Source: an uncultured Ruminiclostridium sp. (GTDB lineage Bacteria > Bacillota > Clostridia > Oscillospirales > Ruminococcaceae). Taken from it: 64,000 nucleotides of DNA. Both the position numbers and the translations under genes were made by a program. The first letter of the stretch is position 1, and every line of letters begins with the position of its first letter. The stretch is taken from contig CANQIB010000001.1 of NCBI GenBank assembly GCA_947623915.1, positions 124,001-188,000 on the forward strand. Direction: 5' to 3'. Positions 26,666 through 31,833 of this stretch are shown here, one piece after another. The notes under the pieces were generated by a model. That model saw only the letters and a list, made by a program, of their open reading frames with translations, was not told the origin of the DNA and ran no database searches.

Positions 26666-27193
26666 ATGATAACTGCGTCGATAGAATGGAACGAAGAAAA
26701 CATAAAAAGATATGTTACCTATACGCTGCTCGGCGGCAACAAAAAGGCAAAGATATTTATCGGCATATACTGCGCGGTAATAGTGCTGATGGCGGCTGCC
26801 GGCGTTTGCTTTGCGATTTTTACGGGATTTTATTTACTGACGGTATTCGCCGTTCTCGCAATACTGCTGGCGGTGGTGTTTGCCGTTATTCTTAAATTCG
26901 CCTTGAAAAAATATTCGTCGGATATTTTAAAGCTGAACGGCGAAAACGGGGTAAATAAGCTGGTCATTTCCCGTGAAAGCATTACAGTATATAACGGAGA
27001 GATACCTGCGGCGGTCATCGGGTGGGATTCCGTCGCGTCATTGGATTTTAACGACGGCGACGCTTATATGACTATGATAAACGGGCTGCTGTTCATAATA
27101 GAGCGGGACAAGCTGGTTTCCGGCGACTTTGAGGAGCTTGGCGGATTGGCGGCTCAGAGAATGGTGAAAAAAGATGACGAATTATCAAATTAA
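26666..27193 (+). CDS. YcxB-like membrane protein
   Basis: A 175-residue protein with two membrane helices (IYCAVIVLMAAAGVCFAIFTGF and LLTVFAVLAILLAVVFAVIL) followed by a C-terminal domain reading GENGVNKLVISRESITV, then IGWDSVASLDFNDGDAYM. This is the layout of YcxB-like C-terminal domain proteins, whose function is unknown. It follows the phosphatase by 12 bp and overlaps queH by 20 bp. Confidence 0.75.
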   Translation: MITASIEWNEENIKRYVTYTLLGGNKKAKIFIGIYCAVIVLMAAAGVCFAIFTGFYLLTVFAVLAILLAVVFAVILKFALKKYSSDILKLNGENGVNKLVISRESITVYNGEIPAAVIGWDSVASLDFNDGDAYMTMINGLLFIIERDKLVSGDFEELGGLAAQRMVKKDDELSN

Positions 27194-27809
27194 AACCGAC
27201 GAGATAATTGCCGGCCTAACGGGAGTACCGCGTTTGTTACTGCATTGCTGCTGCGCGCCGTGCAGCAGTTATGTGTTGGAATATCTGAGCGAGTATTTTA
27301 AGATAACCGCGTTTTTTTATAATCCCAACATTACCGACCGTTTGGAATACGAAAAAAGAAAAGCGGAGCTTATCCGCTATATCGGCGAAAGGCATTTTAA
27401 ATACGACGTCGATTTTGCGGACGGAGATTATTCGCCGCAGCTTTTTTGGAATATTGCGAAAGGAAAAGAGGATATTCCCGAAGGGGGAGAGCGGTGCTTT
27501 TCCTGCTACCGTTTGAGGTTGGAAAAAACCGCCGCGCTCGCCAAAGCGGGAAACTATGATTTTTTTTGTACTACTCTTTCGGTAAGCCCGCATAAAAACG
27601 CGCAAATGCTGAATTTGATAGGCGGAGAACTGGAGAAAACGGCGGGAGTGCCTTATCTTTTCTCGGATTTCAAAAAGAGGAACGGATATAAGCGTTCGAT
27701 AGAGCTTTCGGCGCAGTACGGGCTGTACAGACAGAACTACTGCGGCTGTGTTTTCAGCAAAAACAGTCGGGAAACGATGAATTTTAAGAAAATTTCGGAA
27801 AAATCATAA
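27174..27809 (+). CDS. queH: Epoxyqueuosine reductase QueH
   Basis: QueH (DUF208) reduces epoxyqueuosine to queuosine in tRNA, replacing the cobalamin enzyme QueG. The protein carries LLLHCCCAPCSSYVLEYL (Cys25-27 and Cys30), then YNPNI, GGERCFSCYRLRLEKTA, FFCTTLSVSPHKN and a C-terminal CGC. These cysteines bind the iron-sulphur centre. The length is normal for the family. queA and tgt for the same pathway lie at 51-54 kb. Its start overlaps the previous gene by 20 bp. Confidence 0.92.
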   Translation: MTNYQIKTDEIIAGLTGVPRLLLHCCCAPCSSYVLEYLSEYFKITAFFYNPNITDRLEYEKRKAELIRYIGERHFKYDVDFADGDYSPQLFWNIAKGKEDIPEGGERCFSCYRLRLEKTAALAKAGNYDFFCTTLSVSPHKNAQMLNLIGGELEKTAGVPYLFSDFKKRNGYKRSIELSAQYGLYRQNYCGCVFSKNSRETMNFKKISEKS

Positions 27810-27816
27810 AAAACTG

Positions 27817-27845
27817 TTGTCAAAAATGTTTTTTTGTGCTAAAAT
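27817..27845 (+). promoter_or_regulatory. Sigma-A promoter of the corA leader
   Basis: TTGTCA (27817-27822), 17-bp spacer, TAAAAT (27840-27845). Transcription would start near 27852 and give a 188-nt leader before corA. Confidence 0.65.
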
Positions 27846-27851
27846 AATATA

Positions 27852-28039
27852 AGTTATGACTTGTATATAAAGGGGTGAGCAATAATGTCTGCGGACGGTA
27901 ACGGGCGATGGTGCCGGTTTAATAATATTACGCGGAAATTGTCGCTTACCGGCTCTTTCCGCTGAGTTGGCTGCCGTTCCTGCCGTGTGGCTTTTGCCAT
28001 ATGACGGACCGACGTGCGGCGGCCGGAAAGAGGTGCTGT
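27852..28039 (+). promoter_or_regulatory. Structured corA leader with two mutually exclusive hairpins
   Basis: Structure A: GCGGAAA (27932-27938) pairs with TTTCCGC (27956-27962). Structure B: CTCTTTCCG (27953-27961) pairs with CGGAAAGAG (28024-28032), which contains the corA Shine-Dalgarno, and is extended by GGCTGCCG (27969-27976) with 28017-28024 (the two arms compete only for base 28024). A and B use the same bases, so only one can form. Structure B would hide the ribosome site. I see no M-box, Mn or NiCo riboswitch core. The 26-codon leader ORF covers 27885-27965. Confidence 0.55.
27885..27965 (+). CDS. Leader peptide ORF (26 codons) upstream of corA
   Basis: A short frame, MSADGNGRWCRFNNITRKLS and then LTGSFR, with a very strong ribosome site AAAGGGGTGA at 27869-27878, 9 nt from the ATG by its G run. 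It ends at a TGA (27963-27965) that lies inside the 5' arm of a hairpin sequestering the corA ribosome site. The peptide is basic and has no proline run. The strength of the ribosome site and the position of the stop suggest that its translation controls corA; the peptide itself may have no function. Confidence 0.55.
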   Translation: MSADGNGRWCRFNNITRKLSLTGSFR

Positions 28040-28972
28040 ATGCTGAAATATTACAAATCCGTAAATAACACTATCACGGAGACGGAGGAGCTTGAGGCGG
28101 GCTGCTGGGTATCGGCGGTCGCTCCTACCGAAACGGAAATATCCCTGCTTGAGGAAGATTTGGGGATAGACCGTGATTTTATACGCTCCGCTCTTGACGA
28201 GGAGGAAACCTCGCGTATCGAAAGCGAGGACGGTCAGACTCTTATCATACTTGACTATCCTGTCGCCGAGAAAACAGACGAGGACGAAACCATAAGCTAT
28301 AATACCATGCCTATGGGAATTATACTTACGGACGCCAACGTTATCACCGTTTGTCTTAAAGATAATGTTATCGTTGAGGATTTTTCTCAAGGTGTCGTAA
28401 AGGGCGTTCAAACGCAGCTAAAGACCAGATTTATTTTCTATATGCTTTTAAGGATAGCGGGCAAGTACCTGCAATATCTTAAACAGATAGACAAGCTGTC
28501 GGGTTATGTTGAAGGTCAGCTTCGCAAGTCAATGAAAAACAAGGAGCTTTTACAGCTGCTCAGCTTGCAGAAGTCGTTGGTCTACTTTTCCACATCTTTG
28601 AAATCGACCGAAACCGTGTTGGAGAAAATACATCGCGGGCGCGTTATAAAGCTCTATGAAGAGGACGAGGATCTGTTGGAGGATCTTTTGGTCGAGGTAA
28701 AGCAGGGTATCGAGATGAGCAACATATATTCCAACATTATATCCGGCACTACCGAAGCATATGCCGGTATCATCTCAAATAACCTTAATATAGTGATGAA
28801 GGTGCTTACCGTAATTACGATAGTAATGTCCGTACCGACGATGGTGTTCAGCTTTTACGGAATGAACGTCGGGGATCTGCCACTGCCGTTCACCTGGTTC
28901 ACCTTGGGTATTTCGTCACTTTTGGCGATAGTCGTTGCGATAATAATAACAAGAACAAAGTTTTTCAGATAG
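28040..28972 (+). CDS. corA: CorA family magnesium (divalent cation) transporter
   Basis: A 310-residue CorA-type channel: a large N-terminal cytoplasmic domain, a long helix, and two C-terminal membrane helices, with the selectivity motif GMN at 274-276 (FYGMNVGDLPLP) between them and a short basic tail (RTKFFR). CorA pentamers import Mg, Co or Ni down the membrane potential. ATG 28040 follows AAAGAGGTG at 28027-28035; an earlier ATG at 28001 lies within the regulatory leader. Expression is likely controlled by that leader. Confidence 0.92.
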   Translation: MLKYYKSVNNTITETEELEAGCWVSAVAPTETEISLLEEDLGIDRDFIRSALDEEETSRIESEDGQTLIILDYPVAEKTDEDETISYNTMPMGIILTDANVITVCLKDNVIVEDFSQGVVKGVQTQLKTRFIFYMLLRIAGKYLQYLKQIDKLSGYVEGQLRKSMKNKELLQLLSLQKSLVYFSTSLKSTETVLEKIHRGRVIKLYEEDEDLLEDLLVEVKQGIEMSNIYSNIISGTTEAYAGIISNNLNIVMKVLTVITIVMSVPTMVFSFYGMNVGDLPLPFTWFTLGISSLLAIVVAIIITRTKFFR

Positions 28973-29014: not shown

Positions 29015-29743
29015 ATGGAAAAAGTCAGAATATCTATCGGCGGGCATGATCTCAGCCTTAAAAGCGACGATCCCGCAAAGCTGCACGCCGCAGAGGACGA
29101 GTTAAAGAAGAAGATCTCGCAGTTCGGTTCGCCGGGGCTGTCGCTTACCGATACGGTCATACTTTCGGCGCTCGATATAGCCGACGAATTACAGACTGCC
29201 AAAGCCGACGCCGCAAACGCCGCAAAAAGCGCGAAGGAGTGCTCCGAGACCGCCGCGGTTTTGAAAAAGCAGCTTGAAGAATACAAGCAAAGCGGCAGCA
29301 GCTCCAAAGAATTGCAAAGCAAGCTGTCCGACGCCGAGAGCAGGATAAGTCGGTTGGAAACAGAAAACAATTCTCTTATCGCGGAAAACGACAAAGTGAT
29401 AAAGTCGGAGGAGGCGATAAAGGAGGAAAACCGCGAGCTTTCCGAAAAGAACAAGCAGCTTGAAAGCAAGCTGGCACAGCTTGAAACGTCATGGAACAAC
29501 CTAAAGCGGGAGTACGGACGTTCCCATAACAAGAAAGACGATGTGTCGGGAGCGGGAGAACAGGAGATCGCGGTACTCAAGGATACGGTCGCGACCTATG
29601 AAAAAACGTTCGACGAGTATGTAAAGCAAAAAAGCGCGGAGCTTGCCGAGCTGAACGACGAGCTTAACGCTTTAAGAAAAAAATATGCGGACCTTAATCA
29701 GCAGATGAGCGAGATCGTAAACGACGGACAGATGACGCTATGA
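29015..29743 (+). CDS. zapA: ZapA-like cell division protein with long coiled-coil extension
   Basis: Residues 1-70 form a ZapA domain (KVRISIGGHDLSLKSDDPAKLHAAEDELKKKI), the FtsZ-ring associated protein family. Unlike classical ZapA (about 85-110 residues), a further 170 residues of heptad-rich coiled coil follow (about 75-165 and 190-235), rich in Glu, Lys and Ser. The gene sits before a U32 peptidase, its usual partner in Clostridia. A hairpin GCTTCC/GGAAGC (28988-29003) lies between an upstream AAAGGAGAGG and the start at 29015. Confidence 0.82.
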   Translation: MEKVRISIGGHDLSLKSDDPAKLHAAEDELKKKISQFGSPGLSLTDTVILSALDIADELQTAKADAANAAKSAKECSETAAVLKKQLEEYKQSGSSSKELQSKLSDAESRISRLETENNSLIAENDKVIKSEEAIKEENRELSEKNKQLESKLAQLETSWNNLKREYGRSHNKKDDVSGAGEQEIAVLKDTVATYEKTFDEYVKQKSAELAELNDELNALRKKYADLNQQMSEIVNDGQMTL

Positions 29744-31833
29744 GTGAGATACTTGCCCCCTGCGGAACGTTTGAAGCGCTTACGGCTGCCGTTAATACGG
29801 GAGCCGATGCTGTTTATTTGGGCTGTGTGGATTTCAACGCCCGAAAAAACGCGGAAAATTTTACGTCGGACAGACTTAAAGAAGCGATAGAGCTGTGCCA
29901 CAGAAATTCCGTAAAGGTGTATATTACCCTAAACACCTTGATATACGACCGCGAAGCGGAAAGCTTTATACGAACCGTGACGGAATGTGCTGAAAACGGT
30001 GCGGACGCTTTGATAGTACAGGATCTGGGAGCTGCAGCGCTTATCCGCAAGACAGTTTCGGATATTCCGCTGCACGCATCGACTCAAATGACGGTAAATT
30101 CGCCTGCCGGTGCAATGCTTGCAAAGGAACTCGGCTTTTCAAGAGTGGTACTGGGTCGGGAGCTTTCATTTGAACAGATAAGGGATATAGTGTCCTCCTG
30201 CGATATAGAAACCGAAGTATTCGTACACGGCGCGCTGTGCGTAAGCGTCAGCGGACAATGCGGCATGAGCGCGGCTCTCGGCGGACGCAGCGCAAACAGA
30301 GGTATGTGCGCTCAACCCTGTCGGCTCGGATTTTCCTGCCTAGGCAGGGAAAACGTCCTGTCGCTTAAAGACCTTTCGCTGATAGAACGGCTCAAAGAAC
30401 TGGAGGAGATAGGCGTAACTTCCTTTAAAATAGAGGGAAGAATGAAACGCCCCGAATATGTTGCCGCCGCCGTTGCCGCCTGCCGAGATTCCGTCGGCGG
30501 AAAGCCGCCGAATATGCAGCTGCTGCGCGGAGTTTTTTCCCGCAGCGGTTTTACGGACGGATATTTTACGGGAAACTTTCATAATATGCAGGGGATAAGA
30601 ACAAAAGAAGACGTTTTTGCCTCCGCAGGAGCGCTGCAGAAAGCCGAAGCCCTTTATGCAAAGCCTTTTAAAAGATATAAGTGCGATATTTCGGCAACAG
30701 TGACCGAAAATAAGCCGATATCCGTTACAGTGAGCGCAAAAGGTCATTCCGTCACCGTCAGCGGTTCGGCGCCGCAAAAAGCCTTAAAGCACGAGCTTAC
30801 CTCCGACGCGGTATGCGCCCAACTGGAAAAGCTCGGCGGAACGGAGTTTTATTGCGAAAATACTGTCGCCAGGGTCGAGCCCGGTCTTTCGGTCAGCCTT
30901 TCGGAGTTAAACGATTTCAGACGGCGCGCCGTTCGGCAGCTTTCCGACAAGATACTTGCGGAAAACACGCCGGTATATGTATTTAAATCGCCGATGTCCG
31001 ACGGTAAAGCGGGTCGGGCAGCCGTCACGCCGCTTTTTGCGGATAAAAAGAGCGTTTTGGCGGAAAAGTCGGAACGTTTCGGGTATCGGTGCGAGGTCTA
31101 TACTGCGCGGCAACTGGACAAGGCGATACAGATAAAGGAGTTTTCTTTTATTTACTGTCCCGATACGCTGCTTTCAAGCGATACCGCCGATAAGGAAAGG
31201 ATAGTGGCAGTACCTCCCGTGTTTTTGGGCGACTGCGAAAAGGAAACCGCAGAGCGGCTGGCAAAGCTAAAAGAATACGGATTTTCAAACGTGGCGGTGC
31301 ATACGCTTTCGCATATCAATATCGCCAGGCGGCTCGGAATGACGCCGTTCGGCACATATAGGCTCAATATTACAAACAGCTTTACTTTGAACGCGCTCAG
31401 CGCTCTTGGAGTAAAGGACGCGGTGCTTTCACCTGAGCTTACCCTGAGAGCCGCAAAGTCTATCTGCGCGGATCCCGATGTTAAGAGAGGGATAATAGCG
31501 TACGGACGTTTACCGCTTATGCTTACACGGCGCTGCCCGATAAACGACGGTATGCCCTGCGGCAGGGTAAAAAGAAAGAATTGTCCTCATGCTCTGAACG
31601 ACAGAAAAGGCAGGTCGCTGATATGCCTTTGCTCGGATAATGCCGTCGAGATACTAAATCCCGACGTTTTATATCTCGGAGATAAGCAGGACGAGCTGAG
31701 GGGATTTGATTTCGTGATTTTAAGATTTACTGATGAAACAGACCCGTATCGGCAGTTTTCATCGTTTGTCCGCGCCGAGCGATTTACGGAAAATTTTACC
31801 AGAGGATCGTATTTTAAAGGAACAACGGAATGA
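29740..31833 (+). CDS. U32 family peptidase (RlhA/YrrO-like)
   Basis: This 697-residue protein has an N-terminal TIM-barrel U32 domain (ILAPCGTFEALTAAVNTGADAVYLG) with the cysteine signature GQCGMSAALGGRSANRGMCAQPCR at about 172-195 and LKDLSLIERLKEL, then a DUF3656-type middle and a C-terminal repeat of the barrel. Members include putative collagenases and the RlhA enzyme that hydroxylates C2501 in 23S rRNA, which needs an iron-sulphur cluster; an RNA-modification role is more likely than proteolysis. It overlaps zapA by an ATGA. Confidence 0.9.
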   Translation: MSEILAPCGTFEALTAAVNTGADAVYLGCVDFNARKNAENFTSDRLKEAIELCHRNSVKVYITLNTLIYDREAESFIRTVTECAENGADALIVQDLGAAALIRKTVSDIPLHASTQMTVNSPAGAMLAKELGFSRVVLGRELSFEQIRDIVSSCDIETEVFVHGALCVSVSGQCGMSAALGGRSANRGMCAQPCRLGFSCLGRENVLSLKDLSLIERLKELEEIGVTSFKIEGRMKRPEYVAAAVAACRDSVGGKPPNMQLLRGVFSRSGFTDGYFTGNFHNMQGIRTKEDVFASAGALQKAEALYAKPFKRYKCDISATVTENKPISVTVSAKGHSVTVSGSAPQKALKHELTSDAVCAQLEKLGGTEFYCENTVARVEPGLSVSLSELNDFRRRAVRQLSDKILAENTPVYVFKSPMSDGKAGRAAVTPLFADKKSVLAEKSERFGYRCEVYTARQLDKAIQIKEFSFIYCPDTLLSSDTADKERIVAVPPVFLGDCEKETAERLAKLKEYGFSNVAVHTLSHINIARRLGMTPFGTYRLNITNSFTLNALSALGVKDAVLSPELTLRAAKSICADPDVKRGIIAYGRLPLMLTRRCPINDGMPCGRVKRKNCPHALNDRKGRSLICLCSDNAVEILNPDVLYLGDKQDELRGFDFVILRFTDETDPYRQFSSFVRAERFTENFTRGSYFKGTTE

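Follow-up and report, generated by a model that had tools for sequence, protein, structure and literature searches.

The window, the 64,000-nt stretch of Ruminiclostridium sp. DNA analysed here, encodes a CorA-family Mg2+ channel whose start at 28040 matches the starts in relatives and whose gene is the sole PF01544 match in its genome. Judging by sequence alone, its upstream neighbour (27174–27809) is presumably QueH-like, and we take the downstream genes (29015–31833) to be ZapA-like and U32-peptidase-like. The corA leader, single-copy in its genome, contains the following features, all on the forward strand.

27817–27845 (+), sigma-70-like promoter, TTGTCA-N17-TAAAAT with TG before the -10, 10/12 matches
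27869–27878 (+), Shine-Dalgarno sequence of the leader ORF, AAAGGGGTGA, read directly, in a region conserved in alignment A1
27885–27965 (+), leader ORF (uORF) of 26 codons, ATG at 27885 and TGA at 27963–27965, MSADGNGRWCRFNNITRKLSLTGSFR
27894–27899 (+), uORF codons 4–5, GAC GGT (D4-G5), with Asp kept and Gly where most relatives have Pro
27903–27908 (+), uORF codons 7–8, GGG CGA, within the conserved rare-codon patch identified by codon counts
27874–27893 (+), segment 1, covering the uORF Shine-Dalgarno, start and first codons, predicted 5' side of helix 1:2 (minimum free energy fold, covariation)
27931–27950 (+), segment 2, predicted 3' side of helix 1:2, including the hairpin A 5' arm at 27932–27938 (minimum free energy fold, covariation)
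27953–27962 (+), segment 3, the hairpin A 3' arm (27956–27962) and the hairpin B 5' arm (27953–27961), read directly and by covariation
28024–28033 (+), segment 4, the corA Shine-Dalgarno region and hairpin B 3' arm, read directly and by covariation
28040–28972 (+), corA, CorA-family Mg2+ channel with YGMN present, PF01544 at 179.6 bits, above the cut-off

A similar promoter motif precedes the uORF in many relatives of the genus (by eye), and no intrinsic terminator-like site was detected in 27700–28100 of the window. An earlier note on this DNA had proposed a translated-looking 26-codon ORF with its own Shine-Dalgarno sequence before corA, overlapping two mutually exclusive hairpins, and direct reading placed the uORF, its Shine-Dalgarno sequence and both hairpins exactly where that note had put them. 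In hairpin A, GCGGAAA (27932–27938) pairs with TTTCCGC (27956–27962) at 7/7 positions, and in hairpin B, CTCTTTCCG (27953–27961) pairs with CGGAAAGAG (28024–28032) at 9/9, covering the corA Shine-Dalgarno sequence as the note had suggested; the two share 27956–27961 and thus exclude each other. A third predicted helix (1:2), over the uORF start, was absent from that description. The fold of the window leader is more stable than its shuffled versions (z = -2.67; 1/200 shuffles as good). Between segments 3 and 4, the window also has an extra stretch (27968–28023) predicted to form a long hairpin; an insert at the same place is found in two members of its clade (L003 and L004) and is absent from the other 12.

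To profile the leader across relatives, 256 corA leaders were examined, i.e., 46 from the genus, 122 from other genera of the family, 43 from other families of the order and 45 from other orders of the class. These represent 46 of 48 matching genus genomes (two weak matches with E about 4e-4 were dropped), 122 of 128 non-genus family genomes (G111, G149, G234, G272, G299 and G302 were left out), 43 of 48 from other families and 45 of 61 from other orders; many of the relatives' genomes are incomplete. The family includes Merdimmobilis hominis and Acetanaerobacterium elongatum (both Oscillospiraceae, Clostridia), since the stretches from G074 and G102 are identical letter for letter to the records of these species.

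Using as criteria a Shine-Dalgarno match of at least 4 nt and a start of the form M-x(1-3)-[DE]-P, a uORF was found in 171 of the 256 leaders, with [DE]P at codons 4–5 in 167 of these 171. By rank, Asp-Pro-type uORFs occur in 40/46 leaders of the genus, 80/122 of other family genera, 34/43 of other order families and 17/45 of other orders. Typical starts are MTADPCGK, MKADPCGH, MAADPNGR, MNPDPYSR, MSPDPSGS, MDGDPGSR, MSPEPSRK and MDADPGEK. The acidic residue occurs without proline in eight more leaders, namely those of the window, its four sisters and three members of other genera; the window and its sisters have D4-G5 or D4-E5 (starts MSADGNGR, MSADEYGR and MSADGNWR). The window copy is thus, by its sequence, an atypical family member, having lost the proline, and the absence of a proline run pointed out in the earlier note is true of this copy and peculiar to its lineage, as most relatives have Asp-Pro. 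By the criteria used, 77/256 leaders have no such uORF, including 28/45 outside the order. In three of the leaders without a uORF (L129, L137 and L140), a longer upstream frame ends 13–33 nt from the corA start, as if the leader had been lost when corA joined an operon. Two leaders (L173 and L174) have MSPYP instead of MSPDP, with Tyr for Asp and the proline retained.

When uORFs were chosen blind to the peptide, by a Shine-Dalgarno match of at least 6 only, 133/256 leaders yielded one, of which 118 have [DE]P at codons 4–5; every other offset from codons 2–3 to 11–12 gave 0–2. In the controls, [DE]P occurred in 0/11 uORFs on the opposite strand and 1/329 in shuffled leaders. All four Pro codons are used (CCT 61, CCG 33, CCC 20, CCA 4), which points to selection on the amino acid and hence the peptide, and Asp appears as both GAT and GAC. 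Across the 179 selected leaders, Asp is nearly fixed and Pro can be lost. Strong conservation is confined to codons 4–5; codons 6–10 are partly conserved and conservation fades after about codon 10. Lengths range from 11 to about 50 codons, the C-terminus is free to vary, and the stop falls anywhere from about -143 to +56 relative to the corA start. The conservation of the leader frame, for which the earlier note had asked, was strong at codons 4–5 and did not extend past codon ~12. The initial observation holds and is larger than first described; from this comparison of sequences, it is a real and widely conserved regulatory leader.

The codons that follow the motif are themselves unusual. 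In the 179 selected leaders, Arg is encoded by CGA in 11/12, 14/18 and 51/60 cases at codons 6, 7 and 8, and Ser by AGT in 40/44, 17/19 and 22/29 at codons 7, 8 and 9, together with Gly as GGG at codon 7 (63/75) and Leu as TTA at codons 9–12 (39/58); CGA accounts for 1/67 Arg codons at positions 16–19. The preference for CGA and AGT wanes by about codon 13, and TTA and ATA are frequent to about codons 13–15. AGT is also common at codon 2 (21/51 Ser). By comparison, CGA makes up 6% of Arg, AGT 5% of Ser and GGG 12% of Gly codons in 44 ORFs of the window, and codons 2–20 of corA behind the same leaders have CGA at 9/125, AGT at 11/168, GGG at 16/142 and TTA at 15/232; rarity is therefore benchmarked on these two sets, not on each genome. 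Our reading is that codons 6–12 are a slow patch that would hold the ribosome just as Asp-Pro is added, with an unseen RNA-level constraint as the alternative explanation of the codon choice.

The leader is nearly specific to corA. A pattern scan of 247 family genomes gave 24 matches, 23 of them just upstream of corA, and the reversed pattern gave 0. A narrower pattern, which required GGG and [AC][AG] behind the motif and occurred in 3/247 genomes, had been replaced by wider ones. Among the 119 matches listed from a collection of 84,980 genomes, 62 sit 58–198 nt before corA, and the hosts among the matches listed include Acetanaerobacterium elongatum, Marasmitruncus massiliensis, Merdimmobilis hominis and Ruminococcus flavefaciens; among the remaining 57 are N-termini of long ORFs and matches in other phyla. 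Two loci (L360 and L401) were set aside, at 39 and 126 nt from the locus end, and the match in L378 was rejected as antisense within a cytidylate-kinase-like ORF (named from its sequence). No similar DNA was found in a phage collection, and a phage origin of the leader was rejected.

The relationship to the M-box riboswitch (RF00380) differs between orders. In other orders of the class, 13 corA genes lie 135–454 nt behind an M-box, with distances worked out from coordinates. Six of the 13 (G551, G578, G586, G630, G671 and G676) have an Asp-Pro uORF between the M-box and corA, one (G652) has an Asp-Thr uORF, and six have none. At one such locus, L251, the M-box (980–1143), uORF (1396) and corA (1501) stand in tandem. 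Behind this M-box, inspection by eye shows a terminator-like stretch that includes a T-tract, suggesting transcriptional and then translational control. Under strict filters, by which weak matches are lost, the M-box was found in 0/71 genus genomes and in 10/197 order genomes, in none of them at a listed corA. This distribution indicates that a corA gene may use an M-box, the uORF, both or neither.

Consistent with the earlier note, which saw no M-box in the window leader, the window matched no Rfam family at gathering scores; two sub-threshold matches nearby, retrieved at E up to 10, were implausible and rejected. In 20 relatives scanned, the M-box of L251 was the single known RNA family upstream of corA, the other Rfam matches in these loci (an FMN element, a THF element and two tRNAs) lying elsewhere.

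The pairing of the four segments was evaluated in an alignment of 15 leaders of the window's clade (A1), in which the percentage of paired cells leans toward the model because these sequences also served to choose the columns. Helix 1:2 (27874–27893 with 27931–27950) has 84.1% of cells paired and seven doubly changed pairs; its covariation score (0.275; best slid version 0.130) was reached by 0/500 shuffles and its doubly-changed count by 14/500, making it the best supported of the three predicted helices. Helix 2:3 (hairpin A) has 85.8% of cells paired and three doubly changed pairs, with a score reached by 0/500 shuffles, a doubly-changed count matched by 102/500, and a slide of -2 that scores 0.277 against 0.280. 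For helix 3:4 (hairpin B), 88.3% of cells are paired with two doubly changed pairs, the score being matched by 19/500 shuffles and the count by 115/500. Further pair types were not above shuffles for 1:2, 2:3 or 3:4 in A1, and sliding the partner by 1–3 columns reduced the cells paired in all three. The covariation of the two hairpins, for which the earlier note had asked, is apparent for A by score and weaker for B. Overall, covariation supports helices 1:2 and 2:3, and 3:4 more weakly.

In an alignment-free test, the segment from -14 to +14 round the uORF start was complementary to downstream sequence at p ≤ 0.05 in 97/177 leaders, while the flanking segments were so in 9/177 and 9/177, equal to chance; the window's own 1:2 complementarity has p = 0.18. 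In an energy test, p ≤ 0.05 was obtained for 1:2 in 83/167, 2:3 in 61/167 and 3:4 in 35/167 leaders, the last weakly above controls. These tests cover 177 and 167 of the 179 selected leaders, the rest having too little room. The best reading of the three helices is that they would together form a four-segment translational attenuator.

To explore the direction of the switch, the leaders were folded with a modelled ribosome footprint. In free leaders the corA site was 0.31 open, and 0.46 with a shuffled middle. A ribosome at codon 4 opened the corA Shine-Dalgarno sequence in 67/179 leaders and closed it in 9/179, compared with 32/177 and 23/177 for shuffled leaders. For the window, modelled openness was 0.32 free, 0.58 with a ribosome at codon 4 and 0.35 with one at the stop. 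Mean openness across the whole set of leaders was higher with the ribosome at the stop (0.53) than at codon 4 (0.42), counter to the sign we propose. Where the stop lies >45 nt upstream of corA, the codon-4 ribosome opens the site more in 21 leaders, against nine for the stop ribosome; where it lies ≤45 nt away (99/169 leaders), the stop ribosome does so in 62 and the codon-4 ribosome in 11, and for these near-stop leaders the test says little because the footprint overlaps segments 3–4. The footprint effect is modest in this modelling, in which early holding or drop-off most likely corresponds to corA being on. The earlier note had termination at the uORF stop opening corA; given the codon-4 folds and the window values, that direction is probably reversed, and the deciding part appears to be codons 4–12, not the stop codon, whose position is scattered.

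We consider it somewhat more probable than the alternatives combined that the leader is a cis-acting, ribosome-based and Mg2+-sensing translational attenuator, with corA opened when ribosomes pause or drop off early. In this mechanism, the strong Shine-Dalgarno sequence would load ribosomes onto the short uORF, where the M-x-x-Asp-Pro chain and the rare codons would cause them to pause or fall off while covering segment 1. At that stage segment 1 would be occupied and segment 2 still untraversed, so that 2:3 (hairpin A) could form, leaving segment 3 unable to mask the corA Shine-Dalgarno sequence, and CorA would be made. With ample Mg2+, stable ribosomes would translate through segment 2 or stop on it, breaking 2:3, so that segment 3 would close the corA site via hairpin B. 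If no ribosome were present, 1:2 and 3:4 would form and both the uORF and corA sites would be closed. Drop-off would also free segment 1, and favouring 2:3 would then depend on rapid re-initiation. The conserved uORF, the Asp-Pro at fixed codons and the rare-codon patch are direct observations, as are the near specificity for corA and the co-occurrence with the M-box in other orders. We infer the direction of the switch, the role of Mg2+ as the signal of the Clostridia corA-leader family, and the pausing or drop-off of these bacteria's ribosomes at Asp-Pro. A single Asp-Pro may not stall ribosomes when EF-P is present, because the stall described in B. subtilis was for repeats and without EF-P.

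The sign is where translational coupling enters, an unlikely competitor that keeps the direction of the earlier note: a ribosome completing the uORF would melt hairpin B and pass to corA, so that completion would mean on. In 99/169 testable leaders the stop comes no more than 45 nt from the corA start and coupling is possible there, as a ribosome at such a stop would remove 3:4 by occupancy, and the all-leader average also goes its way. However, coupling does not predict the scattered stops or the unconserved frame past codon ~12, the modelled stop ribosome of the window leaves its Shine-Dalgarno sequence closed, and early drop-off would lower CorA when Mg2+ is short, which is the wrong sign for an importer. 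Somewhat less probable than coupling is that the motif senses a translation signal other than Mg2+, such as the activity of EF-P or the ABC-F protein YfmR, tRNA charging or elongation stress. Rare codons would presumably slow any ribosome, and in B. subtilis without EF-P, overexpressed YfmR relieves Asp-Pro stalling (PMC11381351). Against this, the motif is linked to the gene for a Mg2+ channel and in six genomes shares its upstream region with an M-box riboswitch, and codons 6–12 encode many amino acids, making a single charged tRNA unlikely as the signal.

The remaining two explanations concern the parts of the leader taken separately. A riboswitch in helix 1:2 that binds Mg2+ or another metal directly, with the uORF incidental, would account for the strongly covarying helix over the uORF start; it is improbable given that the window leader has no Rfam match, that the peptide motif persists across genera whose segments 1–4 diverge widely, and that Asp-Pro is conserved at the amino-acid level. 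Conversely, the uORF might encode a functional small peptide, acting for example on CorA, as a conserved and translated-looking frame could suggest. This we hold to be the most improbable of all and set aside because conservation is absent outside codons 4–10, being strong at codons 4–5 only and partial at 6–10 with a variable C-terminus.

Taken to its full extent, the attenuator reading leads to a broader proposal, on which we are evenly divided: an undescribed family of Clostridia corA leaders in which the ribosome itself is the Mg2+ sensor, through Asp-Pro at codons 4–5 and a rare-codon trap acting on a three-way RNA switch at the corA start. Such a family would be convergent with enterobacterial MgtL and MgtQ; within the window's order it would replace the M-box riboswitch, and in other orders it would add a second Mg2+ checkpoint behind one. 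If true, Mg2+ sensing by ribosome destabilisation would extend from a few enterobacterial genes (mgtA and mgtB) to CorA and to much of the Clostridia, gut and rumen species among them. A rare-codon trap that holds the ribosome while the destabilising chain is too short to stabilise it would then be a new design element. The 179 selected leaders provide a ready mutational record in which codons 6–12 look deliberately slow. They open the way to testing whether Mg2+ is generally sensed by a short acidic-proline chain combined with slow decoding, and raise the question of why some lineages use a uORF in place of, or behind, an M-box. A literature search, covering mostly non-subscription papers, found no account of a corA uORF or of CorA regulation in Clostridia.

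The leader was compared with known Mg2+-responsive systems. In B. subtilis lacking EF-P, Asp-Pro repeats stall ribosomes (PMC11381351), and in mycobacteria an M-box controlling a uORF has been reported (PMC12810186). The M-box (ykoK) is alike in preceding corA in the 13 genomes of other orders, six of them with an Asp-Pro uORF; it differs in being aptamer-based, and it was not found in the window or, under strict filters, in the 71 genus genomes. The corA motif is described as gamma-proteobacterial (PMC6429828); the hosts here are Clostridia, and the sole Rfam match at the leaders scanned was one M-box. As with corL of E. coli and Salmonella, a uORF precedes corA. E. coli corL acts inversely on corA, responds to Mg2+ and works with Rho, and CorL has few acidic or Pro residues, unlike the leader here (PMC11552253). 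The resemblance to MgtL and corL logic suggested in the earlier note is supported.

In E. coli, MgtL carries a destabilising EPDP (Glu2, Asp4), and low Mg2+ leads to drop-off and transcription of mgtA; with EttA present, a toeprint puts Pro3 in the P site (PMC11282234). Like mgtL before mgtA, the window has a short ORF with its own Shine-Dalgarno sequence directly before a Mg2+ transporter gene, and the family (171/256 leaders) has an early acidic-proline motif, here D4-P5 in most. The mgtL switch is described as relying on a Rho-dependent terminator (PMC11282234), whereas here the Shine-Dalgarno sequence of the next gene would be masked. The transporter family and phylum also differ, as do the rare-codon patch at codons 6–12 and the window copy without Pro, which keeps D4 and has G5; we do not class this copy as an MgtL-type leader because its proline is lost.

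The RNA has a parallel in Salmonella mgtQ, between mgtC and mgtB, which uses Asp2 and Glu5 in the peptide and stem-loops 1:2, 2:3 and 3:4 to open the mgtB ribosome-binding site (PMC8092293). The likeness lies in early acidic codons, in 1:2 and 3:4 opposed to 2:3, in 3:4 masking the ribosome-binding site and in control at translation, which is proposed here (PMC8092293). In our leaders, segment 1 is predicted to pair with segment 2, and segment 2 alternatively with segment 3; the 3:4 masking is perfect in the window, with 88.3% of cells paired, weak covariation and p ≤ 0.05 in 35/167 leaders across the clade and wider set, respectively. Unlike our leader, mgtQ is an 8-codon uORF inside an operon, serves another transporter and belongs to enterobacteria, and its account, in the portion available, mentions no rare-codon patch such as the one present here (PMC8092293). 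By analogy, the leader peptide resembles MgtL and the leader RNA resembles mgtQ.
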